A stretch of 16,952 nucleotides of DNA, taken from NCBI GenBank assembly GCA_030630935.1, contig DAOVMD010000014.1, forward strand, positions 1 to 16,952. Direction: 5' to 3'. Source of the stretch: Candidatus Mcinerneyibacteriota bacterium. Lineage in GTDB: Bacteria; AUK180; JAQVHJ01. The notes beneath the pieces are model-generated. The model was not told where the DNA came from, searched no databases, and was given only the letters and a program-made list of their open reading frames with translations. This document shows, one piece after another, positions 794 to 15,583 of the stretch. The position numbers and the translations under genes are program-made. How positions within the stretch are numbered: the first letter of the stretch is position 1; every line of letters starts with the position of its first letter.

Positions 794-1252
794 GTGAAGA
801 AAGACAATATTAAAAATACAGAAGAACAAGAAGAAGAGTTTTTTCCAAAAATCATTGGATTTTTATGTAGATGGTGTTCCTATGCGGGTGCTGATCTTGC
901 AGGAGTCAGCCGGCTACAGTATCCTCCCACCCTTCTACCTATTAAGGTAATGTGTTCAAGCCGTGTTGATCCAGTTTTAATGATTTCGACTTTTCTTCGT
1001 GGTGCAGATGGTGTATTAGTTGCCGGATGTCATCCAGGAGATTGTCATTATCAAAATGGTAATTATTATGCCCGCCGTCGATTTGCATTATTAAAATCTA
1101 CATTTCAATTACTTGGCCTTGATGCAGATAGACTTCGTTTATCCTGGATTTCTGCATCAGAAGGTCCAAGATTTGCAAAAGTTGTGACAGAATTCAGTGA
1201 AAAGATAACAAAAAAAGGGTCAAACCTTGTAAAACGTGAAATCTTTATTTAA
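794..1252 (+). CDS. mvhD: MvhD-type iron-sulfur electron-transfer subunit (first copy)
   Basis: Hydrogenase/heterodisulfide reductase delta subunit family (MvhD/FlpD), a small [2Fe-2S] protein that passes electrons from a partner dehydrogenase to HdrA in the cytoplasm. The 152-residue product has the family cysteines: C25 and C28 (CRWC), C54 (KVMCSSRVDP), C79 and C84 in GCHPGDCHY, followed by the NYYARRR and WISASEG motifs. The start is GTG, with AAAGGA at 782-787 as ribosome site. It is the first gene of the operon. A paralogue of almost equal length lies at 1880. No MvhA/MvhG hydrogenase subunits are nearby, so its partner is more likely one of the FrhB-like proteins or the NfnB-like domain of the operon (inference). 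Confidence 0.9.
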   Translation: MKKDNIKNTEEQEEEFFPKIIGFLCRWCSYAGADLAGVSRLQYPPTLLPIKVMCSSRVDPVLMISTFLRGADGVLVAGCHPGDCHYQNGNYYARRRFALLKSTFQLLGLDADRLRLSWISASEGPRFAKVVTEFSEKITKKGSNLVKREIFI

Positions 1253-1267
1253 AAACAGGAGGTTTAC

Positions 1268-1627
1268 ATGGGAAAAGTGGCATTTGTTTGTAATGGTTCC
1301 GAGGGGAAATGTGTATTCCCACCATTCATCCTTGGATCATCAGCAGCGTCATTAGGCGACGATGTTGTAATTTTTTTCACCCCTGCCGGTGCAGGTTCAA
1401 TGGTCAAAGGTGAGCTTGAAAAGATGCAAGGAGCAAAGGGATTACCTGATATAATCGAATTATATGAAGGAATTCGCCAGCTTGGCGGAAAGATTTACGT
1501 CTGTGAATTAGCATTAGACGCTAAGGATTTGAAAGAGTCAGATTTTAGAGAAGGTGTAGAATTAATTGGAGCAACTGCATTTTTAAAAGAAACAGAAAAT
1601 GCTAACACTACCTATTCATTTGGTTAA
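1268..1627 (+). CDS. DsrE/DsrF-like sulfur carrier protein
   Basis: A 119-residue DsrE-like protein. The family forms small oligomers that carry persulfide sulfur on a conserved cysteine and exchange it with TusA or DsrC. The chain has an N-terminal Rossmann-like strand (KVAFVCNG), a glycine/alanine-rich FFTPAGAGSM segment (37-45) and the candidate active cysteine C79 in KIYVCELAL, where DsrE proteins hold theirs. C8 and C15 are further cysteines. AGGAGG at 1257-1262 sets the ATG. It lies 15 bases after mvhD and 14 before the TusA-like gene, so transfer between this protein and TusA is a natural inference. The exact subfamily (DsrE, DsrE3 or other) cannot be decided by eye. Confidence 0.8.
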   Translation: MGKVAFVCNGSEGKCVFPPFILGSSAASLGDDVVIFFTPAGAGSMVKGELEKMQGAKGLPDIIELYEGIRQLGGKIYVCELALDAKDLKESDFREGVELIGATAFLKETENANTTYSFG

Positions 1628-1641
1628 AAAGGAGGTTTAAG

Positions 1642-1866
1642 ATGGCAACGATTGTATTAGATACTTTAGGTCTTAAATGTCCTCAACCGATTCTTAAGGT
1701 TGCGATAAAAGCAAAAGAGCTTCAGGAAGGTGATATGCTTGAGGTTCTTGCAGATTGTCAATCATTTCCCAAGGATCTAAAAGCTTGGTGTGACAAGACC
1801 GGTAGGACACTTTTAGTTTGTGCTGAAGAAGGTGACGGCAAATTCAAAGCCCAGATCCAGTTTTAA
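1642..1866 (+). CDS. tusA: TusA-family sulfur carrier
   Basis: A 74-residue TusA-like protein. TusA proteins bind persulfide on the cysteine of a CPxP motif and hand it to acceptors in tRNA thiolation, molybdenum enzyme maturation or dissimilatory sulfur metabolism. Here C13 lies in LGLKCPQPILK. The chain also carries C39 (ADCQSF), C50 (AWCDKTG) and C60, more cysteines than E. coli TusA, as in the subfamily that has the DL-AWC-KTG pattern. GGAGGT at 1631-1636 precedes the ATG. Its place between a DsrE-like gene and a second mvhD favours a role in energy-linked sulfur transfer over tRNA modification, but this is inferred from context. Confidence 0.88.
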   Translation: MATIVLDTLGLKCPQPILKVAIKAKELQEGDMLEVLADCQSFPKDLKAWCDKTGRTLLVCAEEGDGKFKAQIQF

Positions 1867-1879
1867 TAACGGCAAATTT

Positions 1880-2341
1880 ATGCCAAAGTCATCTGTGAAA
1901 AAGGGCAATCCTAAAATCGAGGAAGATTTTTTTCCAAAAATTGTAGCATTCTGCTGCAATTGGTGTACATATGGAGCTGCAGATCTTGCAGGGACGAGTA
2001 AGTTCACGATGCCTCCATCTATTTCAGTGGTTAAAGTAATGTGTTCAAGCCGAGTTGATCCAGTTCAGGTTCTTGAGTCATTTCTTCGTGGAGCTGATGG
2101 TGTATTAATTGCCGGGTGTCATCCTGGTGATTGCCATTATGATAATGGAAATTATTATACAAGAAGGAGATTTGCATTATTAAACGAAGTAGTACAATCA
2201 CTCGGATTGGAAAATGACCGGCTGCAATTATCCTGGATATCTGCTTCAGAAGCAAAAAAATACCAACAAACTGTAACAGATTTTACAGAAAAAATTAAAA
2301 AATTAGGTCGCAATCCATTATGGGTGAAATCAGAAATTTAA
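1880..2341 (+). CDS. mvhD: MvhD-type iron-sulfur electron-transfer subunit (second copy)
   Basis: Paralogue of the 794 gene: 153 residues from the ATG at 1880, with C25, C26, C29 (CCNWC), C55 (KVMCSSRVDP), C80 and C85 (GCHPGDCHY) and the same NYYTRRR and WISASE motifs. The frame is open further upstream to a GTG at 1820, but that would overlap the TusA-like gene by 47 bases and add about 20 residues the paralogue lacks, so the ATG is preferred. It has no strong Shine-Dalgarno site and starts 13 bases after the TusA stop, suggesting translational coupling. Retention of two copies suggests that each serves a different HdrA or FrhB-like partner (inference). Confidence 0.87.
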   Translation: MPKSSVKKGNPKIEEDFFPKIVAFCCNWCTYGAADLAGTSKFTMPPSISVVKVMCSSRVDPVQVLESFLRGADGVLIAGCHPGDCHYDNGNYYTRRRFALLNEVVQSLGLENDRLQLSWISASEAKKYQQTVTDFTEKIKKLGRNPLWVKSEI

Positions 2342-2356
2342 TTTTAGTGAGGACAT

Positions 2357-3619
2357 ATGGAAAATAACATTTTAGTTATTGGTGCTGGTATTACCGGTAT
2401 TGAGGCGAGTATTTTACTTGCGAATGCAGGAAAGCATGTTTACTTAGTTGAGAAATCGCCGATTATTGGCGGGAACATAATTAAGTTTGAACATGTCTTT
2501 CCTAATTTTGAATGTGCGACATGCCTGGTTTCCCCGCGTCAGCAGGAAGTTTTACAGAATTCAAATATTGAGCTCTTATTACTGAGTGAGGTTAAGAAAG
2601 TAACCGGCAAACCCGGGGCTTTTTCTGTCAAGATAAAAAAGCAAGCCCGTTATGTGGACATGGAAAATTGTATAGGTTGTGGAGCATGTTATGATGTTTG
2701 TCCGGTAAAGATTCCCAATGAATATGAGGAGAATCTAATGCAGCGTTTTGCAATCTATGTTCCCTATTCAGGTTCCCTACCGAATGTCCCTGCAATTGAT
2801 ACAGAGAATTGTATCAGGTTTGCAGGTGAGGAATGTAATGCTTGCCAGGAATCCTGTATGTTTGAAGCCATAAATTATGATGAAAAGGACGAAGAGCTCG
2901 ATTTAAAGGTTGATGCGATTATTGTTTCGACAGGATTTCAACAGCACAAACCTGTGGCGAAATATGGTTGGGGTACGATAGATGATGTTTATAATGCGTT
3001 TGAATTTGAGAGGATATTTGCATCCAATGGTCCAACAACCGGCGAGATCAAGAAGAAGGATGGTTCTGAACCGAAATCAATTGCAATTATTCATTGTGTT
3101 GGTCGTGATGAGAATAAATATTGTTCAGCGGTCTGTTGTATAAATTCCCTGAAATTTATTCATTATCTTAAAGAAAAGATTGAGGATATTAAAATCACTA
3201 ATTTCTATAGGGATCTATGCTTACCAGGTAAGAAGTATGATAAGTTTGCTGGAGATATGAAATCATTAGGGACAGACTTCATTCGTTCTGACGATATTGA
3301 GATTAGTTCGGGGGATAAATCTATACTGGTTAACTATATGAATGGTGATGCGAAGAAGCAATTACCGGCAGATATGGTGATTCTATCATCATCAATCGAA
3401 CCACAAAAAGATAACAATGATCTTGCAAAGGTCTTAGGAATAGAACTTGATAGCTTTGGTTTTTTTCAGGAATCCGACCCTGATTTTGGAACAGAGACCT
3501 CTACGAGAGACGGGATCTATATCGCAGGTTGTGCTCAGGCCCCAAAGGATATCCAGAATTGTGTGACTCAAGCACAATCAGCAGTCGAAAAGGCTCTATT
3601 TCAATTTAATTTAAAATAG
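2357..3619 (+). CDS. Short HdrA-family flavoprotein with inserted ferredoxin (QmoA-like)
   Basis: A 420-residue HdrA core without the N-terminal cysteine domain and without the C-terminal ferredoxin, the layout of QmoA. It has an FAD-binding VIGAGITG (7-14), GGN (38-40) and C53/C56 in ECATCLVSPR. An inserted two-cluster ferredoxin follows: C105, C108, C111, C115, then C152, C160, C163, C167. The HdrA signature HCVGRDENKYCSAVCC holds C247, C256, C260 and C261, and GCAQAPKDI (391-399) is the distal FAD motif. HdrA proteins hold the FAD that splits or merges electron pairs. Spacing to the next HdrA gene is only 7 bases. No aprAB, sat or qmoC is in view, so a QmoABC role is not supported. Confidence 0.88.
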   Translation: MENNILVIGAGITGIEASILLANAGKHVYLVEKSPIIGGNIIKFEHVFPNFECATCLVSPRQQEVLQNSNIELLLLSEVKKVTGKPGAFSVKIKKQARYVDMENCIGCGACYDVCPVKIPNEYEENLMQRFAIYVPYSGSLPNVPAIDTENCIRFAGEECNACQESCMFEAINYDEKDEELDLKVDAIIVSTGFQQHKPVAKYGWGTIDDVYNAFEFERIFASNGPTTGEIKKKDGSEPKSIAIIHCVGRDENKYCSAVCCINSLKFIHYLKEKIEDIKITNFYRDLCLPGKKYDKFAGDMKSLGTDFIRSDDIEISSGDKSILVNYMNGDAKKQLPADMVILSSSIEPQKDNNDLAKVLGIELDSFGFFQESDPDFGTETSTRDGIYIAGCAQAPKDIQNCVTQAQSAVEKALFQFNLK

Positions 3620-3626
3620 GTTTGAT

Positions 3627-5291
3627 ATGAAAGAGAGAATAGGTATATTTTTATGTGAATGCGGACCCAATATTGCAGAAAAAATTGATCTTGATAAGGT
3701 AAAAGAGGCTCTGGAACATTTACCTAATGTGGTGATTGTTGCAAGGCATAAATTGTTTTGTTCACTACAGGGGAAAGAATTCCTAAAGGAATCAATCAAA
3801 GAGAATAATCTCACCAGGTTTGTAATTGCTGCTTGTTCTCCCAAACAACATGAACTTACATTTATGATTGTTGCTGAGGACGCCGGGATGAATCCCCATT
3901 TATTCCAGATGGCGAATATCAGGGAGCAATGTGCCTGGATAATTGAAGATAAAGATGAAGCGACAAAGAAAGCTATTTTATATATTAAAGCAGCATATAA
4001 AAGAGTTATATACCATGAGTCATTAGATAAAAAGGAAATTGTTGCAAATCCCGATGTCCTGGTAATTGGCGGCGGGATCGCAGGTATTGAAGCAAGCTTA
4101 GCCTTAGCAGGACCTGATCGGAAAGTATATCTAATTGAAAAGACGGAATCACTTGGAGGGAAGATTAAGGAATTTGATGAAGTATTTATCAGTTTTAAAA
4201 ATGGCCAAAGCATAATTGATGAAAGGCTTGAGCGGATTGAGAAAGAAGATAATATAGAGACTCGTCTTCAAGCAGAAGTTATAGATGTGAAAGGCTTTCT
4301 TGGAAATTTTATTGTAATAGTAAAGACCGGAGATTCTGAAGAAAAGATTCAAGTAGGGGCGATTATTGTTGCCATCGGCTTTGAATTAATTAACCTGTCA
4401 CAATTAAAGGGCTACGGTTCTTTAGACTGTGACGATATATATACCGGGTTGGAATTTGAGAAGATGAAGAAGGAAGGAAAGATTACTACGAAGTCAGGTT
4501 CGGTACCTAAATCGGTAGGTATAATACATTGTATAGGGCGAAATGAAGTCGGGTACTGCTCCGGGGTTTGCTGTCTTTCGTCCATTAAATTCTCAAAGTA
4601 TATTCAGGATAAATTGCCCGGGACTAACATATTTGAATTTTACCGTGATTTAACATTACCGGATAAGGCATATCAAAAATTTTATGAAAATATCGAAAAC
4701 AAGGGCGTTAACTTTATTCAAGCAGATGATATTAAGATTGCGAATGAAAAGGGTTTGAAGATAAAGTATAACAAGAACAAATCAACACAACCAGTAGATA
4801 TGATTATTTTATCACCTGCATATGTTCCTGCAAAAGACTCGAATAGCTTAGCAGAAATGCTTAGGATTCCCCGGGATGATTCGGGTTTTTTCACAGAAGA
4901 ACATCCCAAATTAGCACCAGTAAATACGTCAGCAGAAGGTATTTTCATTATTGGTTGTGCCCAGGGACCTAAGAGCATAAAGGATTCTATTTCCCAGGCT
5001 CATGCCGCAGCGGGTAAAATTCTCGCTTCAATTATTCCGGGAAAGAAACTGGAACCTGAAGTAAGGATATCTTATATAAACGAAGCATTCTGTATTGGTT
5101 GTCAGAAATGCCTTAACACTTGTAATTATGGTGCAATTTATTTTGATAATTTAAAGTTTATTTCAATTGTGAATGAAGTTCTTTGTCATGGTTGCGGAAA
5201 TTGTATTGCGAGTTGTAATTCAAGTGCAATTCAATTGAAGCATTTCAAAGATATTCAGATGCATCAGGAGATAATTGAAATATTAAGATAA
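3627..5291 (+). CDS. hdrA: HdrA-family flavoprotein lacking the inserted ferredoxin
   Basis: A 554-residue HdrA homologue. Residues 1-130 are the HdrA N-terminal domain, with C10 and C12 (FLCECG), C45, C70 (ACSPKQHE) and C102. The FAD domain begins with VLVIGGGIAGIEA (144-156) and carries HCIGRNEVGYCSGVCC (C302, C311, C315, C316) and GCAQGPKSI. The C-terminus has two [4Fe-4S] motifs, C489/492/495/499 and C520/523/526/530. The ferredoxin normally inserted in the FAD domain is absent, which explains the length below the usual 650. It therefore complements the preceding 420-residue protein, and together they supply one of each HdrA domain with two flavin sites. The weak ribosome site overlaps the previous stop region. 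Likely cytoplasmic complex subunit. Confidence 0.88.
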   Translation: MKERIGIFLCECGPNIAEKIDLDKVKEALEHLPNVVIVARHKLFCSLQGKEFLKESIKENNLTRFVIAACSPKQHELTFMIVAEDAGMNPHLFQMANIREQCAWIIEDKDEATKKAILYIKAAYKRVIYHESLDKKEIVANPDVLVIGGGIAGIEASLALAGPDRKVYLIEKTESLGGKIKEFDEVFISFKNGQSIIDERLERIEKEDNIETRLQAEVIDVKGFLGNFIVIVKTGDSEEKIQVGAIIVAIGFELINLSQLKGYGSLDCDDIYTGLEFEKMKKEGKITTKSGSVPKSVGIIHCIGRNEVGYCSGVCCLSSIKFSKYIQDKLPGTNIFEFYRDLTLPDKAYQKFYENIENKGVNFIQADDIKIANEKGLKIKYNKNKSTQPVDMIILSPAYVPAKDSNSLAEMLRIPRDDSGFFTEEHPKLAPVNTSAEGIFIIGCAQGPKSIKDSISQAHAAAGKILASIIPGKKLEPEVRISYINEAFCIGCQKCLNTCNYGAIYFDNLKFISIVNEVLCHGCGNCIASCNSSAIQLKHFKDIQMHQEIIEILR

Positions 5292-5329
5292 ATTAGCGTT
5301 TTATTCAAATAATATGGAGGTTATAATCT

Positions 5330-6442
5330 GTGGATGGTGTAATTTTAAAAGCACAGAACAATGATTTTAATAAAGGGATAAAGTCCTTTTTATTAAGTGG
5401 TCTAAAGAATGGAGTGTTTGATTCCTTTATCTTGTCTATGCAAGTTCCTGCGAAAGATTCTTATGCCTGGATCCTTACATATGATGAAGGCTTAGTAAAA
5501 TCTTCTACCCCGATTTCACCTATAATGACTGTTCAGGGAGCCAGGGCATTAAAAAGTTTACGCACCGGAACACCTACTCAGAAGATTGCAGTTGTAATGC
5601 GCCCGTGTGAGATGAGAGCAGTGATTGAGTTGAGTAAATTAAACCAGATTAATTTGAATGATTTGATTTTAATTTCATATGATTGTCCCGGAACATTACC
5701 TATTAAAAATTACTTGGAGGATCCTGAAAAGGGAGAAGAAGTGTTTAATAAAATTTTACTGGATTGGGATGATAAGAATATTAGAGAAACATGTAAACTT
5801 TGTGATAAGGTTTCAGTTCAGGAAGAAAAGACATTTCAATCAGATTTACATATTACAACATTAGGTATAGAACAGAATAATTTTGCAATTATCTCCAATT
5901 CAGAAAAGGGTATTGAGATCTTAAATGAATTAAAATTAGAAATAAAGAACCTAAGCTCCAGGGATGAACCAGTAAAAAAGATTATTGAGACGAGAAGGAA
6001 AAATCGAGAAAACTCCCGGAAGGAATTAATCCCTCAACTAATCGGGTTAGATGCCCTGTCTGAATTTTTCAGTAAATGTATTAATTGTAAAGTTTGCAGA
6101 AGTGTTTGTCCCATTTGTTATTGCCGACAATGTTATTTTAGTTCAGAAAAGGTAAAGTACTCAATGGAAGACTATCTTCTCCAGGCGTCAACCCGGGGAA
6201 ATATGAAATTTCTACCAAGTCTATTATTCCAAGTGGGAAGGATGACACACATGTCTCTTAGTTGTGTGAATTGTGGAGCATGTGAAGACGCTTGTCCCAT
6301 GGATATTAAAGTTGGTCAAGCATTTAGTTATGTCGGGGATAATGTCCAAAAGTTATTTGACTATCTACCAGGTCGAAGTTTTGAGGAACCTTTACCACTT
6401 AGTGTTTATCGTGAGGAAGAGTTTAAAGAAATAGAAAATTAA
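5330..6442 (+). CDS. FrhB/FdhB-like iron-sulfur flavoprotein (first copy)
   Basis: A 370-residue protein related to the beta subunits of F420-reducing hydrogenase and formate dehydrogenase, which bind FAD and iron-sulfur clusters. The N-terminal half has MTVQGARAL, VVMRPCEMRAVIEL (C93) and SYDCPG (C119), a nucleotide/flavin-binding region in this family. C155/C158 form a CKLC pair. A cysteine-dense block follows: C250, C253, C256, C260, then C263, C265, C268 in CPICYCRQC, and finally a ferredoxin motif C312/315/318/322. The start is GTG with GGAGG at 5316-5320. No catalytic formate dehydrogenase or hydrogenase gene is adjacent, and bacteria often lack F420, so the electron donor is unknown. 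Its relative is the next gene. Confidence 0.75.
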   Translation: MDGVILKAQNNDFNKGIKSFLLSGLKNGVFDSFILSMQVPAKDSYAWILTYDEGLVKSSTPISPIMTVQGARALKSLRTGTPTQKIAVVMRPCEMRAVIELSKLNQINLNDLILISYDCPGTLPIKNYLEDPEKGEEVFNKILLDWDDKNIRETCKLCDKVSVQEEKTFQSDLHITTLGIEQNNFAIISNSEKGIEILNELKLEIKNLSSRDEPVKKIIETRRKNRENSRKELIPQLIGLDALSEFFSKCINCKVCRSVCPICYCRQCYFSSEKVKYSMEDYLLQASTRGNMKFLPSLLFQVGRMTHMSLSCVNCGACEDACPMDIKVGQAFSYVGDNVQKLFDYLPGRSFEEPLPLSVYREEEFKEIEN

Positions 6443-6474
6443 GATTAAGATATTTCTCAAATAAAGGTGTATGT

Positions 6475-7593
6475 ATGAATAAAAAAATCAAAATTAATAA
6501 AAGCGTAGAAACCGGATTGAAGGAACTTCTTATTTCTCTACTCGAATCAAGGAAGATTAAAGCAGTCTTTACTCTGGAGAGAAATAAAGATGCTGTGTAT
6601 TATTCGTTAATAACCGATCTTGAAAAGGTTGATCAAGCTTCTCCCTTTCTCCCATTCATGCCTGCAAATGGCGGCAAACTTCTCTCAAAGTTAACCGACA
6701 TTAAATCAATCTCTGAACCCATTGCTGCTGTAATACATCCATGTGAATTGGCTGCCTTTATTGAGTTGATTAAGAAGCAACAGGGTAGTTTGGATAATCT
6801 TTTAATTATTTCTTCTGTTTGCCCCGGGGTCATGCCGATTAATAATATTTCCGAAACTAATTTAGATGAAAAAATAAAAAAATATTTTGAATCAGCTAAG
6901 AATAGCAACATCCCAACCGGTCTTCGTGAGAACTGTGAAATTTGTTCCAGAATCATACCTACGAATGCAGATATTATTATAAATTTAATGGATAAGGATA
7001 TTGATAATAGTTTTGAGCTATATATAAATTCTGAGAAAGCAGAGAAATTTCTTGGTGACGAAAACGGGGAAATATTAGATTCGGATTTTGATTTTGCGAA
7101 TAATACATTCCCTCAAAATATTAAGGATATTATTTCACAAAAAGAAAAGAATAGAATTGCAGTAAATGAAAAGTATAAGTTTGATCAACTTGGAATGGAT
7201 GGTCTGATCGATTTATTCGGAAAGTGTATCGGGTGTCATAGTTGCGGAGGTGTTTGCCCAATATGTTACTGTGAGCTTTGTGATTTTGATTCAGCTGAAC
7301 ATGAATATAAGAAAAATGTTTTAAAGTCAGATCTTAATAGCCGAGCAGGAGTAAGACTTCCACCGAACACAATTCTTTATCAATTAGGACGATTGAACCA
7401 TATCTCTACATCCTGTGTTGGATGTGGAATGTGTACGGATGTTTGCCCGGTTGATATTCCCGTAGGAATGATTTTCTCAAGCATTGGAAATTCTGTTCAG
7501 GAATTATTCAAGTATATTCCCGGTGAAAATTTGGAAGAGGCAAATCCAATAACTGTTTATAAAAAGGAAGAACTTACAAACTTTGAAGATTAA
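6475..7593 (+). CDS. FrhB/FdhB-like iron-sulfur flavoprotein (second copy)
   Basis: A 372-residue paralogue of the preceding gene with the same layout: CEIC pair (C154/C157), cysteine block C251, C254, C257, C261, C264, C266, C269 (CPICYCELC) and C-terminal ferredoxin C314/317/320/324, ending in VYKKEEL like its neighbour. In the flavin/substrate region it differs: VIHPCELAAFIEL replaces VMRPCEMRAVIEL and SSVCPG replaces SYDCPG, so an arginine and an aspartate shared by the first copy and, as far as I recall, by most relatives are lost. It may bind another donor or act only as an electron relay (inference). AAAGGTG precedes the ATG. It is followed by a 64-base AT-rich gap with no terminator. 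Confidence 0.75.
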   Translation: MNKKIKINKSVETGLKELLISLLESRKIKAVFTLERNKDAVYYSLITDLEKVDQASPFLPFMPANGGKLLSKLTDIKSISEPIAAVIHPCELAAFIELIKKQQGSLDNLLIISSVCPGVMPINNISETNLDEKIKKYFESAKNSNIPTGLRENCEICSRIIPTNADIIINLMDKDIDNSFELYINSEKAEKFLGDENGEILDSDFDFANNTFPQNIKDIISQKEKNRIAVNEKYKFDQLGMDGLIDLFGKCIGCHSCGGVCPICYCELCDFDSAEHEYKKNVLKSDLNSRAGVRLPPNTILYQLGRLNHISTSCVGCGMCTDVCPVDIPVGMIFSSIGNSVQELFKYIPGENLEEANPITVYKKEELTNFED

Positions 7594-7657
7594 TAAGAAA
7601 TTAAATTTATGAATAAAGAAGATAATTTGTTTTTAATTTGATTCAAGGAAATAAAAG

Positions 7658-10600
7658 ATGAAAAAGGCTAAGAAAATAGGTTCAGTTTTTGTTCTTGGAG
7701 CTGGGATCGGCGGCATTCAGGCAAGCCTTGATTTAGCGGATTCGGGGTTGAAAGTTTATCTTGCTGAAAAGCAATCAGCTATCGGCGGGATGATGTCGCA
7801 GTTAGATAAAACATTTCCAACTAATGATTGTTCAATGTGTATAATGTCCCCAAAACTTGTCGGTGCAGGGAGACATAAGGATATTGAAACACTAACTAAC
7901 ATTGAAGTTTTAGATATTCAAGGCGAGCCGGGGAATTTTAAAATTAAGATAAAAGAAAAGGCAAGGTTTGTTGATGTTGATAAATGTACCGGGTGTGGAG
8001 ATTGTGCTGATGTTTGTCCAATTGAAATTCCAAGCATTTATGATGTTGGATTAGTTATGATTAATGCAACTTCCAGATTATACCCACAAGCGATTCCGAA
8101 TGCCTTTGCAATTGAAAAAGATGGCATCTCTCCTTGTAGTAACGCTTGCCCGGCAGGCTTATCGGCACAAGGTTATGTTGCGCTAATCGCCGAAAGCCGG
8201 TTTCAGGATGCAATTAATCTGGTAAGAGACACCCTTCCTTTACCATCTATTTGTGGAAGAGTTTGTCATCACCCATGTGAGCTTGAGTGTAATAGAAAGG
8301 AAGTTGATGAACCTATTGCAATCAGACCGTTAAAAAGATTTATTGCTGATTGGGCGATCTCTTCAAACGAAGAATTACCCGAAAGAATAATCCCTACAAA
8401 GAGCGAGAAAGTAGCGATTGTAGGTGCGGGAGCTTCCGGCTTAAGTTGTGCAAAGAAATTAGTTGAATTAGGATACAGTGTTACAATCTTTGATGATGCT
8501 GAATATCCTGGTGGAATGGTCACGAGCTGTCTTCCTGATTATCGAATTCCAATCAATATTGCATTATATGATATAAATCGTATCCTTGCTCTCGGAATAA
8601 ACCTGGAAAAGAAACGAATCGGTAAAGATATTAAATTAAAAGATTTACAAAAAGAATTTGACTCAACATACATTGCTATTGGCTGTCAGACAGCAAAGAA
8701 ATTGCCCATAAAAGGCAGTGAGCACAAAGATGTTTTATATGGCATTCCATTCTTAAGACGAGTAAAAAGCAGAGAGAATATTTCAATTGGAGAAAGGGTT
8801 GTTATTATTGGTGGTGGTAATGTCGGAATAGATTGTGCAAAGTCCGCCCTTAGGCTTGGGGTTAAAGAAGTTTCAGTTGTTTGTCTTGAAACCAGGGATT
8901 TAGATTCAAAAGATCGCATGCCAGCACATCATTGGGAAATTGAAGAGGCCGAGGAAGAGGGAGTAAAGATCCTTGATTCCTGGGGTCCTGTAGAAATAGT
9001 AATAAAGAATAAAAAAGTATCCGGCTTAAAGTTAAAAAGATGTACATCGGTTTACACTAAAAAAGATAAAAAATTTGCTCCTACGTTTAATGAAAAGGAG
9101 GTAACGATTGCTCAAGCTGATACCATAATTATTGCAATAGGTCAAGGATCTGACCTTACTGGTTTTGAAGATTTAGAATTTACACCGTTTAAAACGATTA
9201 AAGTAAATGAAATTTCTCTTGAAACAAATATAAAAGGCGTTTTTGCCGGGGGCGATATTGTTAAAGGTCCTGCATCTGTGGTTGATGCAATTTATTATGG
9301 AAATGAAGCCGCGGTTTCAATCGACCGATTTTTAAATAGTAAATCTTTAACAGAGGATCGAGCGAAGCTGGAAAGAAAGTTAGCAGAACTACCTGACAGG
9401 GAAATTGAAAAAATGCATAGGCTCGATCTTCTAAAAAGACCAGCCAAGATCAGAATTCATGATTTTGGAGAAATAGAAATGGGGTACCTTTCAGAGTCTG
9501 AAGTAGTTGAAGAAGCAAAAAGATGTCTTGCCTGTGCGATTTGTTCGGAATGTTTACAATGTGTTATCAGTTGCGAAGCAGATGCTATTGATCACAGCAT
9601 GCTAGATAAGTTCTATGATATTGATGCAGGGGCAGTAATTATTGCAAGCGGAACTGAAACTTTTGACCCGAACTTGAAACCAGAATATGGATATAAGAGA
9701 TATCCCAATGTTCTTACAAGCTTAGAGTATGAAAGAATTTTATCAGCATCCGGACCATTTGAAGGTCATATTGTACGACCATCTGACCATAAACAACCAA
9801 AAAATATTGCCTGGCTCCAATGTGTTGGTTCAAGAGATGAAAAAATTGGAAATACTTATTGTTCATCTGTTTGCTGTATGTATGCAACTAAGGAAGCAGT
9901 AATTACAAAGGAGCATACTCATAATGTTATTGATACAACGATTTTCATGATGGATATGCGTGCTTACGGAAAAGATTTCGACAAGTATTTCGAAAGAGCA
10001 AAAGATGAGTATGGAGTAAAGTATATAAGAAATCGAATTTCAGAAGTAAGGGAGAATCCAAGAACTCACAACTTAATTTTGCGATACGAGACTGAATCAG
10101 GAAAGTTAAAACAAAAGGAATTTGATTTAGTGGTTTTATCTGTTGGTCTTGTTGCACCTCAAAAAAGTTCAGAACTAATGAAGAAAATCGGAGTTGAGCT
10201 AAATGAATATGATTTTGTAAAAACGGGGGAACTGTATCCTCTTGAGACCAGCAAGCCTGGGATTTTTGTTTGCGGCTCATTTCAGAGCCCAAAAGATATT
10301 CCGGAGACTGTTGCGCAGTCCAGCGGTGCAGCAGCACAAGCTGAAGTTTTATTATCTGATGTTAGAAATACTTTAATAACAACAGTTGAGCTTCCTGACG
10401 AAATTGATGTTACGGGTCAAGAACCGCAGATTGGAGTATTTGTCTGTAATTGTGGAATCAATATCGGCGGTTATATTGATGTTCCTGCAGTAGTTGAATA
10501 TGCATCCACACTCCCGGGAGTTGTTTATGCTGAACATAATCTTTTCACATGTTCACAAGATACACAAAGTAAAATAAAAGAGAAAATTCATGAATATAAT

Positions 10601-12112
10601 TTAAATCGTGTAGTTGTTGCTTCTTGTACTCCAAGAACACATGAGGCTTTATTCCAAAGCACTATTAGGGAAGCAGGATTAAATAAATATCTTTTTGAAA
10701 TGGCTAATATTAGAGATCAATGTTCCTGGGTACATATGAATGAGCCGAAGAAGGCATTAATAAAAGCGAAAGAATTGGTTAGAATGGCAGTTGCAAAAGC
10801 GGCATTGTTAGAACCATTAGATTCAATTCCACTCAGTGTTACTCAAAAAGCATTAGTAATTGGTGGTGGGTTAGCAGGTATGATTACAGCAATCGATATT
10901 GCTGACCAAGGTTTTGAAGTCTTCCTGGTGGAAAAAGATTCTAAACTTGGTGGTTATATGAATCATTTATATTATTCAATATATGGTGAAGATATCCAAG
11001 CATATTTGAAAGGAATAATTTCCAAAACAAAAAAACATCCATTGATTAATTTATATTTGAATAGTCAAGTAAAAGAAATTGAAGGTTTTGTAGGAAACTA
11101 TAAAACCATTATTAATTTACCTAACCAGATCCCGTCAACAGTTGAAGTGGAACATGGAGTAGTTTTAGTTGCAACAGGTGCCGAAATGGTGCGTACAAAA
11201 GAATACCATTACGGAGAAGATAAAAGAGTCGTCAATCAACTTGAATTGGAATCTCTGATTATTAAAAAGGATAAAAGAATAAAACAAGCAAATAAAATTT
11301 TTATGATTCAGTGTGTTGGATCAAGAGATGATGAAAGACCGTATTGCAGTCGTGTTTGCTGTAGTGAAACAGTTAAAAACGCAATAAAGATTAAGGAAGA
11401 GTATCCCGAAAAAGAGATATATATTCTTTATCGTGATATGAGAACTTATGGATTCAGAGAAACTTTTTTCGAACATGCCAGGAAAATAGGAATAGTTTTC
11501 ATTCGTTATGATTCAAATAAAAAACCTGAAGTTCTAAAAGAAGCCGGAAAGCTAAAAATAAAATTCTATGATATTTTACTAGAAGAGGATATTTTTTCTG
11601 ATGTTGATTTATTAGCTTTAGCGGTAGCAATTGAACCGCGAACGGATTCAAAGGAATTATCACAACTTCTTAAGGTTCCTGTTAATGATGATGGTTTCTT
11701 CCTTGAAGCTCATGTTAAATTGAGACCTGTTGACTTCGCCACAGAGGGAGTCTTTATGTTAGGAATGGCACACTCTCCGAAATTTATTGATGAAGCCATT
11801 ACACAGGCACATGCCGCTGTTGCAAGAGCAATGACAATAATTTCTAAAGATAAATATTATGCCGAAGCTATAATCTCCCGGGTAAATGAAGAATTATGTG
11901 TTGGTTGTGGTGTTTGTGTATCAGTTTGTAATTACGGAGCTATTGAAATAATGGACGAACAACCTTCTGAAGCAAAGCAAAAAGTGATACTGCATGAAGC
12001 GGTCTGTAAGGGTTGTGGAAATTGTGCCGCAGCTTGTCCATCAGGAGCAATGCAGCAGAAAAGCTTTAAATCAGAACAATTGTTAGCAGTAATCGCTGCA
12101 GCATTTGAGTAA
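7658..12112 (+). CDS. Triple flavoprotein fusion: HdrA with inserted GltD/NfnB module, then a second HdrA
   Basis: A 1484-residue protein with three FAD-type modules. Module A: HdrA start with LGAGIGG (13-19), C58/C61 and ferredoxin C110/113/116/120. Insert (about 155-615): GltD/NfnB-like NAD(P)H oxidoreductase with C160, C164, C199, C203, C207, C211, FAD motif GAGASG (256-261), pyridine-nucleotide motif GGGNVG (385-390) and AGGDIVKGP (530-538). Module A resumes with cysteines 623-639 and QCVGSRD...YCSSVCC (721-740). Module B (about 924-1484): HdrA N-terminal domain (C930, C932, C965, C990), FAD motif GGGLAG (1069-1074), QCVGSRDD (C1219), and two ferredoxin motifs (C1414-1424, C1450-1460). 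It should couple NAD(H) to ferredoxin-type carriers through flavin bifurcation (inference). Last gene of the operon; no terminator hairpin was found after it. Confidence 0.9.
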   Translation: MKKAKKIGSVFVLGAGIGGIQASLDLADSGLKVYLAEKQSAIGGMMSQLDKTFPTNDCSMCIMSPKLVGAGRHKDIETLTNIEVLDIQGEPGNFKIKIKEKARFVDVDKCTGCGDCADVCPIEIPSIYDVGLVMINATSRLYPQAIPNAFAIEKDGISPCSNACPAGLSAQGYVALIAESRFQDAINLVRDTLPLPSICGRVCHHPCELECNRKEVDEPIAIRPLKRFIADWAISSNEELPERIIPTKSEKVAIVGAGASGLSCAKKLVELGYSVTIFDDAEYPGGMVTSCLPDYRIPINIALYDINRILALGINLEKKRIGKDIKLKDLQKEFDSTYIAIGCQTAKKLPIKGSEHKDVLYGIPFLRRVKSRENISIGERVVIIGGGNVGIDCAKSALRLGVKEVSVVCLETRDLDSKDRMPAHHWEIEEAEEEGVKILDSWGPVEIVIKNKKVSGLKLKRCTSVYTKKDKKFAPTFNEKEVTIAQADTIIIAIGQGSDLTGFEDLEFTPFKTIKVNEISLETNIKGVFAGGDIVKGPASVVDAIYYGNEAAVSIDRFLNSKSLTEDRAKLERKLAELPDREIEKMHRLDLLKRPAKIRIHDFGEIEMGYLSESEVVEEAKRCLACAICSECLQCVISCEADAIDHSMLDKFYDIDAGAVIIASGTETFDPNLKPEYGYKRYPNVLTSLEYERILSASGPFEGHIVRPSDHKQPKNIAWLQCVGSRDEKIGNTYCSSVCCMYATKEAVITKEHTHNVIDTTIFMMDMRAYGKDFDKYFERAKDEYGVKYIRNRISEVRENPRTHNLILRYETESGKLKQKEFDLVVLSVGLVAPQKSSELMKKIGVELNEYDFVKTGELYPLETSKPGIFVCGSFQSPKDIPETVAQSSGAAAQAEVLLSDVRNTLITTVELPDEIDVTGQEPQIGVFVCNCGINIGGYIDVPAVVEYASTLPGVVYAEHNLFTCSQDTQSKIKEKIHEYNLNRVVVASCTPRTHEALFQSTIREAGLNKYLFEMANIRDQCSWVHMNEPKKALIKAKELVRMAVAKAALLEPLDSIPLSVTQKALVIGGGLAGMITAIDIADQGFEVFLVEKDSKLGGYMNHLYYSIYGEDIQAYLKGIISKTKKHPLINLYLNSQVKEIEGFVGNYKTIINLPNQIPSTVEVEHGVVLVATGAEMVRTKEYHYGEDKRVVNQLELESLIIKKDKRIKQANKIFMIQCVGSRDDERPYCSRVCCSETVKNAIKIKEEYPEKEIYILYRDMRTYGFRETFFEHARKIGIVFIRYDSNKKPEVLKEAGKLKIKFYDILLEEDIFSDVDLLALAVAIEPRTDSKELSQLLKVPVNDDGFFLEAHVKLRPVDFATEGVFMLGMAHSPKFIDEAITQAHAAVARAMTIISKDKYYAEAIISRVNEELCVGCGVCVSVCNYGAIEIMDEQPSEAKQKVILHEAVCKGCGNCAAACPSGAMQQKSFKSEQLLAVIAAAFE

Positions 12113-13517: not shown

Positions 13518-13805
13518 ATGGACTCTAAGAAATTAGCCAAGATTTTCAAGATACTGAGTAAGCCATCTAATGTTAAGATACTTCGGGCACTACAAGGTTG
13601 TAAAAAATGTGTAACGAGTTTAGAGCTTGAATTGAATATCAAGCAGTCAAATTTATCCCAGCATTTGAATTACCTGAAAAATTTTAACATTCTGGATTAT
13701 GAGCGTAAGGGTAATAAAAATTGTTATTACATTAAGGATAAGAGGTACATTAAGTTGATTGCGTATTTAATAAAAAAATTTGAGGAGGTAAATAGTGAGA
13801 AATAA
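13518..13805 (+). CDS. ArsR/SmtB-type transcriptional regulator with a CxxC motif
   Basis: A 95-residue winged-helix repressor: PSNVKILRAL (16-25), recognition helix IKQSNLSQHLNYLKN (41-55) and wing YERKGNKNCYYI (61-72). Such proteins leave DNA when metals or oxidised/persulfidated cysteines alter them. C28 and C31 (GCKKC) lie just before the recognition-helix pair, close to where ArsR has its ELCVCDL arsenite site, and C69 is in the wing. The signal might be a metal(loid), persulfide or disulfide stress; sequence alone does not decide. Its stop overlaps the next gene's start by 11 bases, so the regulator and thioredoxin genes are coupled. AGGAAG near 13503 precedes the ATG. Confidence 0.87.
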   Translation: MDSKKLAKIFKILSKPSNVKILRALQGCKKCVTSLELELNIKQSNLSQHLNYLKNFNILDYERKGNKNCYYIKDKRYIKLIAYLIKKFEEVNSEK

Positions 13806-14313
13806 ACTTTCGATTTTTACACTTGGTTTAGTTTTGCTGACATCAGTTTTATTATTAAGTGGTTGTCCTGAAAACAATCCGACTTCTTCATCGAAAGCGA
13901 TGCCGGAATTTAACTTAGAGAATATTCATGGTGGTATGGTTAATTCCTCAGATTTAAAAGGCAAGGTTCTTGTTTTGGATTTTTGGGCTACCTGGTGTGC
14001 CCCTTGTCTTCAAGCGACACCATATTTAAAAAAATTACATAAAGAATTTGAAGGTAAGCCGGTAGAGATTATAGGAATAAATTTGGATTATGATAAATCG
14101 AATGATTTCGTTGTAAAGTTTGCCAAGAAAAAAGGGATTGCGTATACCATTTTAAAAGGAGACCAGAAGATTTCCGGAAAATTTAAAATTCGTGGAATTC
14201 CAGTTTTTTTTCTTATAGATAAGGAAGGTAATATTAAGCAGAAATATATTGGGTTCAATCCTTCATTTTTCAATAAATTACCTTCGGAGATAAATAAATT
14301 ATTAGAGGAATAG
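13795..14313 (+). CDS. TlpA/ResA-like thioredoxin-fold lipoprotein
   Basis: A 172-residue membrane-anchored thiol-disulfide protein. Residues 1-23 form a lipoprotein signal with the lipobox LLSGC, C24 being the lipidation site, followed by a short Ser/Thr-rich linker. The AhpC/TSA-like thioredoxin domain (about 37-170) has the redox motif WCAPC (W67, C68, C71) and the cis-proline segment GIPVF (P136). Relatives reduce apocytochrome or other exported protein cysteines on the outer face of the inner membrane. The GTG start is set by GAGGAGG at 13782-13788, with an 11-base overlap with arsR. How it gets electrons across the membrane is not shown: no CcdA or DsbD gene is in the window. Confidence 0.88.
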   Translation: MRNKLSIFTLGLVLLTSVLLLSGCPENNPTSSSKAMPEFNLENIHGGMVNSSDLKGKVLVLDFWATWCAPCLQATPYLKKLHKEFEGKPVEIIGINLDYDKSNDFVVKFAKKKGIAYTILKGDQKISGKFKIRGIPVFFLIDKEGNIKQKYIGFNPSFFNKLPSEINKLLEE

Positions 14314-14316
14314 ATT

Positions 14317-15291
14317 ATGGATACTTCAAAGATTTGGGATGTTGTTGTAGTTGGTGGTGGACCTGCAGGAATGACAGCTGCCATCTATACTCAGAGGAGT
14401 TTACTTGAAACCTTAATCGTTGAGCAATTAATGCCTGGCGGTAATGTTGCAATTACTAACAAGGTAGAGAATTACCCTGGATTTAATGAGATATCGGGAG
14501 GTGAACTTTCTAAGAGAATGGAAGACCAGGTGAAGAACCTGGGAGTTGAGTTTTTATCAGGTCAAGTTGAATCAATTTCACAAGATGAAGATTTAAAGTA
14601 TGTTACATTATCGGACGGTAGTTATCTCCAGACCAAATCAATTATTCTTTCTACCGGAGCCGGTTGGCGGAACCTTGGTGTTCCCGGTGAACGGAAATTT
14701 ACGGGTCGCGGAGTTTCATATTGTGGTACTTGTGATGGGCCATTTTTCAAAGATAAAGTAATAGCAGTCGTTGGTGGTGGAGATACAGCCCTTGATGAAT
14801 CGCTTTATCTTGAGCGTTTTGCATCAAAAATATTTCTCATTCATCGCCGCGACGCATTTCGCGGGGCAAAGATATTCCAGGATAGAGTCTTAAAAAATCC
14901 TAAAATTGAGGTTGTTTGGAATTCGGTTGTTACTGAGATTCAAGGTGATCAAATTGTAAATAATCTAAGGTTAAAAAACACGAAGACTGGTGAAGAGAAG
15001 GATTTACCGGTTGAAGGAGTTTTTATTTTTATAGGACAGGAACCGAACACTAAGTTTTTAAAGACTTTCTGTGACCTTGATAAATATGGTTATATAATCA
15101 CAGACCAGGAGATGCACACTCGAGTTGATGGAATTTTTGCGGCTGGAGATGTTCGAAAGAAAAATCTTTATCAAATTGCTACTGCAGTCGGAGATGGTGC
15201 AATTGCAGGGTATATGATAATAAAATATTTAGAAGAATTAAAATGTAAAGAGGAGGAAAAAAATGAGTGCAATGCAGATCAAAACAGCTGA
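14317..15291 (+). CDS. trxB: Thioredoxin reductase
   Basis: Low-molecular-weight flavoprotein that transfers electrons from NADPH through FAD and a cysteine pair to thioredoxin in the cytoplasm. The 324 residues show VGGGPAG (12-18) for FAD, the redox centre YCGTCDG with C136 and C139, the NADPH-fold motif GGGDTA (153-158), HRRDAFR (176-182), whose arginines normally bind the NADPH phosphate, and FAAGDVR near the C-terminus. It starts 4 bases after the lipoprotein gene. The C-terminal 15 residues (KCKEEEKNECNADQNS region) extend over the ribosome site and start of trxA and carry two extra cysteines. Function is near certain; the true partner is likely the adjacent TrxA. Confidence 0.95.
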   Translation: MDTSKIWDVVVVGGGPAGMTAAIYTQRSLLETLIVEQLMPGGNVAITNKVENYPGFNEISGGELSKRMEDQVKNLGVEFLSGQVESISQDEDLKYVTLSDGSYLQTKSIILSTGAGWRNLGVPGERKFTGRGVSYCGTCDGPFFKDKVIAVVGGGDTALDESLYLERFASKIFLIHRRDAFRGAKIFQDRVLKNPKIEVVWNSVVTEIQGDQIVNNLRLKNTKTGEEKDLPVEGVFIFIGQEPNTKFLKTFCDLDKYGYIITDQEMHTRVDGIFAAGDVRKKNLYQIATAVGDGAIAGYMIIKYLEELKCKEEEKNECNADQNS

Positions 15292-15583
15292 TTTTGAGTC
15301 AGAAGTTTTAAAGTCGGAAATCCCTGTTATTATCGATTTCTGGGCAGAATGGTGTATGCCATGTAAAATGATAGCTCCGATTCTCGATGAACTTTCCAAG
15401 GAATTTGAAGGTAAAATTAAGGTTGGGAAATTAAATGTTGACCAGGAACGTGAACTTGCTATAAAATATAATATAGTTAGTATTCCAACTATTCTCTTTT
15501 TTAAAAGCGGAGAAATTGTTGATACTCTAATTGGAGCAGTTCCAAAATCAAATATTAAATCTAAGATTGAAGATTTACTATAA
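15263..15583 (+). CDS. trxA: Thioredoxin
   Basis: A 106-residue thioredoxin that reduces protein disulfides and is itself reduced by TrxB. It has FWAEWCMPCKMIAP with W30, C31 and C34 and the cis-proline segment SIPT (P75), followed by ILFFKSGE. The active site is WCMPC instead of the usual WCGPC; a change at the second intervening position's neighbour tends to shift redox potential, so it may have altered partner choice. GGAGG at 15252-15256 is inside trxB and fixes the ATG, giving a 29-base overlap with the end of trxB. A second in-frame ATG at 15272 is less well placed. Last gene before the terminator. Confidence 0.95.
   Translation: MSAMQIKTADFESEVLKSEIPVIIDFWAEWCMPCKMIAPILDELSKEFEGKIKVGKLNVDQERELAIKYNIVSIPTILFFKSGEIVDTLIGAVPKSNIKSKIEDLL

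Follow-up and report, generated by a model that had tools for sequence, protein, structure and literature searches.

HdrL of a Candidatus Mcinerneyibacteriota bacterium: a probable two-module HdrA with a circularly permuted, StnC-type GltD module in its ferredoxin

The window analyzed here, a whole stretch of 16,952 nucleotides from a Candidatus Mcinerneyibacteriota bacterium (contig DAOVMD010000014.1), carries an hdrL-type gene whose product of 1,484 amino acids (aa) combines two HdrA modules with a GltD domain. We consider it reasonably probable that this bacterial HdrL is a type II HdrA, which would form its own heterodimer, with a StnC-type NAD(P)H module placed in the ferredoxin of module A and wired as proposed below. 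The reading is carried by the observed domain order, homology, ligand conservation, and permutation of the GltD domain, together with the predicted fold of residues 1–911. HdrA complexes determine how anaerobes produce low-potential ferredoxin, and an HdrA form exchanging electrons directly with NAD(P)H, in many bacterial phyla and often near MetFV or Flx-like genes, would, within a single chain, connect the NAD pool with sulfur metabolism and the Wood–Ljungdahl pathway.

Such HdrA/GltD fusions are widespread in anaerobes and are not new; an earlier note on this DNA, made from the sequence alone, had allowed that related fusions might already be in databases under generic names. The name "HdrL, heterodisulfide reductase/glutamate synthase fusion" dates from 2009 (PMC2702500), an NfnB/GltD insertion of approximately 500 aa in the ferredoxin of HdrA 9–11 of ANME-1 was described with a proposed use of NAD(P)H (PMC9012536, 2022), and type III HdrA with a GltD/NfnB insert was reported as nine sequences in methane archaea (PMC12054007, 2025). 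The wiring of the present HdrL is predicted here in greater detail than found published; in the part of the literature that was accessible, neither the permutation nor the Lys-type ligand nor the cofactor split was found to be mentioned for HdrL.

Domain architecture

A single open reading frame (ORF) occupies 7658–12112, with exactly the length given in the earlier note (domains in Table 1). Residues 1–155 plus 620–905 (module A) are 36% identical to the 420-aa stand-alone HdrA encoded upstream over 418 positions (Z 117, shuffle control), and residues 924–1484 (module B) are 37% identical to the neighboring 554-aa HdrA (Z 124, shuffle control); the crossed pairs, module A with the 554-aa and module B with the 420-aa protein, score far lower (Z 33–42), which bears out the claimed domain order. 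Pfam and NCBIfam profiles follow one another along the chain as HdrA, Fer4_20 with GltD, and HdrA again, the HdrA2 model (993 bits) being split into four pieces. The insert is GltD/NfnB-like, as had been proposed, with Fer4_20 at 158–236, Pyr_redox_2 at 251–546, and PRK12771 at 526 bits. The top PDB relative of the whole protein is methanogen HdrA (5odc_A, E-value 4e-197), matched in four stretches interleaved with the insert, while the best PDB relatives of residues 157–637 are the large subunits of StnC/NfnABC. Domain and ligand evidence agree with the earlier claim of two HdrA modules, three flavin-binding sites, and many clusters in one chain, and the protein is predicted to carry three flavin adenine dinucleotides (FAD) and nine [4Fe-4S] clusters.

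The AlphaFold2 (AF2) model of residues 1–911, built with 42 sequences, has a predicted local distance difference test score of 88.6 and a predicted template modeling (pTM) score of 0.84. HdrA superposes on it across the insert (5odc_A over model range 1–903, Z 47.5, root-mean-square deviation (rmsd) 2.5, 425 residues), and 9bov_A (NfnABC/StnC) covers residues 155–640 (Z 49.4, rmsd 2.1, 473 residues). The model thus places the insert next to the ferredoxin; an isolated insert, named in the earlier note as the outcome that would speak against it, is not predicted. The type II relative L065 (1,023 aa) was also modeled (AF2 pTM 0.89); its first module matches the FAD domains of HdrA (8rvu_a, Z 51), and its second module (460–1022) matches the full HdrA chain (5odc_A, Z 42).

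The architecture recurs in other proteomes, as the earlier note had thought possible. Scanning one genome per species yielded 80 loci, 50 of them with a single ORF of 1,400–1,900 aa; because so many other single ORFs of that size exist, the fusion is neither an assembly artefact nor chance. The named phyla among them include Thermodesulfobacteriota, Bacillota, Myxococcota, Chloroflexota, Nitrospirota, Spirochaetota, Sumerlaeota, Actinomycetota, Bacteroidota, Thermoplasmatota, and Methanobacteriota, several of which are labels of metagenome-assembled genomes. All conservation counts below refer to 49 aligned, full-length, colinear homologues that are 46%–54% identical to the window protein. The cysteines 58, 61, 110–120, 160, 164, 203–211, 623–639, 722–740, 930–990, 1219–1235, and 1414–1453 are invariant among them; C1456 and C1460 occur in 48 of the 49 rows, the exception being truncated, and C199 is not conserved. 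An in-frame selenocysteine was considered for relatives and rejected, since the frame of L036 is broken by a masked run of N, with no TGA. Two further loci (L095 and L116 of genomes G030 and G027, 1,132–1,148 aa, outside the window's class) encode a one-module HdrA with the same GltD insert, which is the type III form.

A circularly permuted GltD insert

The GltD insert comes after "...QAIPNAFAIEK" and has one cysteine motif of the HdrA inserted ferredoxin on either side. That part of the earlier description holds, but C623 and C626, which it had assigned to the ferredoxin, belong to the tail of a permuted GltD. Ordinary GltD/NfnB proteins have the segment R..xFxEVxxGxxxxxAxxEAxRCLxC at their N-terminus, just ahead of the cluster domain. 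In HdrL, the RCLxC segment follows the GltD core (residues 593–628), and the NfnB-type order is not present in the window protein. A hidden Markov model of HdrL residues 593–628 matches the N-terminal segment of ordinary GltDs at 32–39 bits, and NfnB 12–43 aligns with HdrL 595–627, weakly when taken alone (7.8 bits). Among the classified GltDs, the segment is located ahead of the core in each of the 10 ordinary proteins and behind it in each of the 18 permuted ones (those passing the length filter). By its sequence, the insert is a circularly permuted GltD of the StnC/NfnABC kind. Given this permutation, the displaced CxxC is C623/C626, which together with C160 and C211 should make up the distal GltD cluster, an assignment made by homology with ordinary GltD-fold proteins and not from coordinates.

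Stand-alone permuted GltDs have the same RCLxCxxCxxCxxCxxxC string, which continues into a C-terminal ferredoxin of their own and illustrates how such a splice could arise; a crossover at the common CxxC may have occurred. The 16-residue motif C629–C639 starts with CSEC, which looks GltD-like. Its derivation from the incoming GltD was considered and rejected, as outside the Cys positions the motif is 28% identical to type II HdrA but 17% identical to the tails of permuted GltDs.

Ligand and cofactor of the GltD flavin

In StnC, cluster C7 is bound by K170, where the equivalent NfnB site has Glu, and the FAD is non-bifurcating, with a linear electron route FAD–C7–C6–C5 (PMC10482914). K170 corresponds to K226 of HdrL when counted on the alignment, and this column holds Lys in 43 homologues, His in six, and Glu in none. 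The same position is Lys in 9bov, 9n5u, and 8oh5 and Glu in NfnB 4ylf. The window protein therefore lacks the Glu at the FAD-proximal cluster that marks bifurcating NfnB and has the permuted order and Lys ligand of the StnC type. Because the FAD-proximal cluster has Lys as in StnC, the GltD flavin is expected to be non-bifurcating, and it is probably an NADH port that feeds the HdrA ferredoxin. In the 2′-phosphate region of the NAD(P) site, the homologues have either Arg-Arg (34) or Leu-Glu (15); the window protein has Leu-Glu, which would favor NADH. The prediction for this flavin, together with the ligand map (K226, C623/C626, C61), is open to a direct mutational test.

HdrA modules

Module A has the equivalents of K409 and E356 of methanogen HdrA, the Lys/Glu pair associated with bifurcation (K745 and E692), in all 49 homologues and is the predicted holder of the bifurcating flavin. 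Module B may hold a second one: K1240 is present in 34 and E1198 in 40 homologues, and both occur together in 34, the window protein included. At column 1240, 15 homologues have His, Gln, Ser, or Thr in place of Lys, often with a change from Glu to Asp at 1198.

Tandem or fused HdrAs were described as complementary for Cys197 and the N-domain, such that they may be their own heterodimers (PMC9012536). The window protein follows this type II pattern, with two HdrA FAD modules in tandem: the Cys197 equivalent, C61 (49/49), is in module A, which has no N-domain, and the N-domain is in module B, which lacks such a Cys. It is probably C61 that completes the cluster in the N-domain of module B. The N-domain module comes first in the archaeal fusions, according to the text of PMC9012536, but second in the window protein.

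Proposed electron path

The electron path and its direction, the partners, the bifurcation, and the cofactor occupancy are inferred from these features. NADH would reduce the FAD of the GltD domain, which would act as a simple two-to-one-electron converter and pass electrons to the cluster of C164/C203/C207/K226, then to that of C160/C211/C623/C626, and on to the two clusters of the split ferredoxin. From there, they would reach the cluster in the N-domain of module B, to which C61 of module A would contribute the completing ligand, as well as the HdrA flavins. Of the other arms, the C-terminal ferredoxin would lead to an MvhD/FlpD partner and whatever docks there, and the FAD-domain cluster to an HdrBC-type acceptor. 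The whole path would be reversible. In this path, NAD(P)H would take the place where ordinary HdrA gives low-potential electrons to free ferredoxin.

Alternative readings

The NAD(P)H module might instead be a side port, through which NADH exchanges electrons with free ferredoxin via the ferredoxin domain while the two HdrA flavins serve HdrBC and MvhD partners independently of it. Solvent exposure is conceivable both for the GltD clusters and for the ferredoxin, and the stand-alone permuted GltDs, which end in a ferredoxin of their own, show the order NAD(P)H–GltD–ferredoxin. However, the ferredoxin retains its HdrA position in the model, the ligands of the FAD domains are all invariant, and the insert has been argued to block ferredoxin docking (PMC12054007), so that we regard a side port as rather unlikely. 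A slightly less likely arrangement is one in which the insert adds a second or third site of electron bifurcation and delivers low-potential electrons via its own clusters, as suggested for archaeal HdrA 9–11 (PMC9012536). Its fold is near that of NfnB (4ylf_B, Z 38.5), and R296, which matches the NfnB Arg contacting N5 of FAD, is kept in all 49 homologues; yet StnC retains the same Arg and is non-bifurcating (PMC10482914), the FAD-proximal ligand is never Glu, the closest solved relatives are StnC and NfnABC proteins, and no NfnA-type partner was seen beside the gene.

As to origin, the earlier note had proposed a duplication of the upstream HdrA pair, followed by fusion and by uptake of an NAD(P)H dehydrogenase. 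The shared domain order, the proximity of the genes, and the 36%–37% identity fit this scenario, but a tree of the FAD cores, from which a QmoA reference is absent, contradicts it and makes it highly improbable. The 420-aa and 554-aa HdrAs are sisters of each other (support 100/99), whereas HdrL modules A and B cluster with type II modules A (99/95) and B (100/98), respectively. Approximately unbiased tests rejected the 420-aa protein as sister of module A (p 0.021) or inside the A clade (p 0.009) and the 554-aa protein as sister of module B (p 0.0016). These results match part of the outcome that the earlier note had named as refuting its reading. The halves thus belong with the fused type II HdrAs of approximately 1,000 aa, and the duplication is disfavored despite the long branches of the upstream pair, whose exact placement is unsure. 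Two-module HdrAs of this size, with an uninterrupted inserted ferredoxin and without GltD, are common, often adjoin HdrL, and fall among the HdrL halves. HdrL and type II rows are intermixed in the tree, which implies either repeated gain or loss of GltD or an exchange of the halves; the HdrL inserts do not form one clade in a GltD tree, in which the deep branches are weak.

Several points weigh against a type II HdrA with a StnC-type port as drawn here. No hdrB or hdrC lies in the gene cluster of the window, and the key Lys of module B is missing in 15 of the 49 relatives. NADH is read from a cofactor motif that varies within the family, and the NAD(P) region of the window protein is itself unusual: its GGGNVG motif is unique, the last position being Ala in 48 of 49, and a five-residue insertion, DLDSK, in the same region (residues 385–420) occurs in no other homologue of the 49.

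Comparison with known systems

HdrL1–3 of Desulfobacterium autotrophicum HRM2 (PMC2702500) and HdrL of Desulfurivibrio dismutans (PMC12142623) are likewise large HdrA/GltD fusions with an NADH site and adjoining mvhD; the window protein also unites HdrA domains with those of the glutamate-synthase small subunit in a single chain and has two FlpD genes upstream in its cluster. Compared by description, the window protein uses cysteine, whereas the three D. autotrophicum proteins include two selenoproteins, and a fumarate-reductase domain is part of HdrL3. HdrA 9–11 (PMC9012536) and type III HdrA (PMC12054007) share the NfnB/GltD insert of approximately 500 aa in the HdrA ferredoxin. Type III minus its insert resembles one-module type I HdrA (PMC12054007), while the window protein minus its insert has the two-module type II pattern; type III is reported in methane archaea, and the two-module HdrL host occurs in bacteria and archaea. 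Type II HdrAs (PMC12054007), including the HdrA of approximately 1,000 aa in MetFV clusters, have two complementary modules and are the nearest relatives of both halves, but their inserted ferredoxin is not split by GltD. StnC of Sporomusa ovata and the NfnABC large subunits (8oh5, 9bov, and 9n5u) share the permuted GltD, the displaced RCLxC, and the Lys at the FAD-proximal cluster; their GltD is fused to NuoG/FdhF-like parts and a HydBC-type bifurcating module, whereas that of the window is fused to HdrA. Methanogen HdrA (5odc and 8rvu) has the same FAD domain, inserted ferredoxin, N-domain, C-terminal ferredoxin, and key Lys/Glu, but one module per chain, a homodimer, and no NAD(P)H module.

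Gene neighborhood

Neighbors were counted for the 27 relatives in which both flanks extend 3 kb or more, the cluster names being read from representative sequences and not from curated annotation. They include hdrB (22), hdrC (18), mvhD (18), metFV (9), and FlxC/FlxB-like pairs (11). An hdrB and hdrC pair is found elsewhere in the genome (contig C59), with a one-module HdrA and FlpD. The same organism has a second HdrL (L103 on contig C34 of G000), which is cut at the contig end and followed by MvhD and three electron-transfer genes; the locus is syntenic with a full copy (L101, G001:C34) in the nearest genome compared.

Table 1. Features of the hdrL-type gene and its upstream cluster in the window
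Feature	Coordinates	Strand	Details
hdrL-type gene	7658..12112	+	1,484 aa; HdrA module A with inserted GltD, then HdrA module B
Module A FAD domain, first half	7658..7957	+	Residues 1–100; C58/C61; C61 = Cys197 of methanogen HdrA
HdrA inserted ferredoxin, first half	7958..8113	+	Residues 101–152; C110, C113, C116, C120
GltD core	8120..9343	+	Residues 155–562; FeS part C160, C164, C203, C207, C211, K226; FAD and NAD(P) Rossmann folds; NADH-like CLE motif
Permuted GltD segment	9434..9541	+	Residues 593–628; C623, C626; N-terminal in ordinary GltD/NfnB
HdrA inserted ferredoxin, second half	9542..9592	+	Residues 629–645; C629, C632, C635, C639
Module A FAD domain, second half	9605..10372	+	Residues 650–905; C722, C735, C739, C740; E692, K745
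Module B N-terminal cluster domain	10418..10837	+	Residues 921–1060; C930, C932, C965, C990
Module B FAD domain	10838..11845	+	Residues 1061–1396; no inserted ferredoxin; E1198, K1240
Module B C-terminal 2[4Fe-4S] ferredoxin	11870..12109	+	Residues 1405–1484
MvhD/FlpD family protein	794..1252	+	
DsrE/DsrF-like small protein	1268..1627	+	Flanked by two FlpD/MvhD genes
Second MvhD/FlpD family protein	1820..2341	+	
Stand-alone HdrA, A-type	2357..3619	+	420 aa; inserted ferredoxin; Cys197 equivalent C56; no N-domain
Stand-alone HdrA, B-type	3627..5291	+	554 aa; N-domain; C-terminal ferredoxin
FdhB-related iron-sulfur protein	5330..6442	+	370 aa; match 9t1s_M, E-value 5.6e-32
Paralogue of the 370-aa FdhB-related protein	6475..7593	+	372 aa; 36% identical

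The two FlpD/MvhD proteins that flank the DsrE/DsrF-like gene are 62% identical to each other, and the tandem FdhB-like paralogues (5330–7593) are akin to the beta subunits of F420-formate dehydrogenases of Hdr supercomplexes. It is conceivable, though quite unlikely, that the cluster 794–12112, with its two FlpD, the DsrE-like protein, the divergent HdrA pair, the two FdhB-like proteins, and HdrL, would form one large NADH-dependent complex of two HdrA heterodimers in series, in which protein-bound sulfane sulfur or a persulfide on the DsrE-like protein would replace the heterodisulfide. Farther along the window, downstream of panC, positions 13518–15583 hold a small helix-turn-helix-like ORF, a ResA-like thioredoxin, a thioredoxin reductase, and a thioredoxin.

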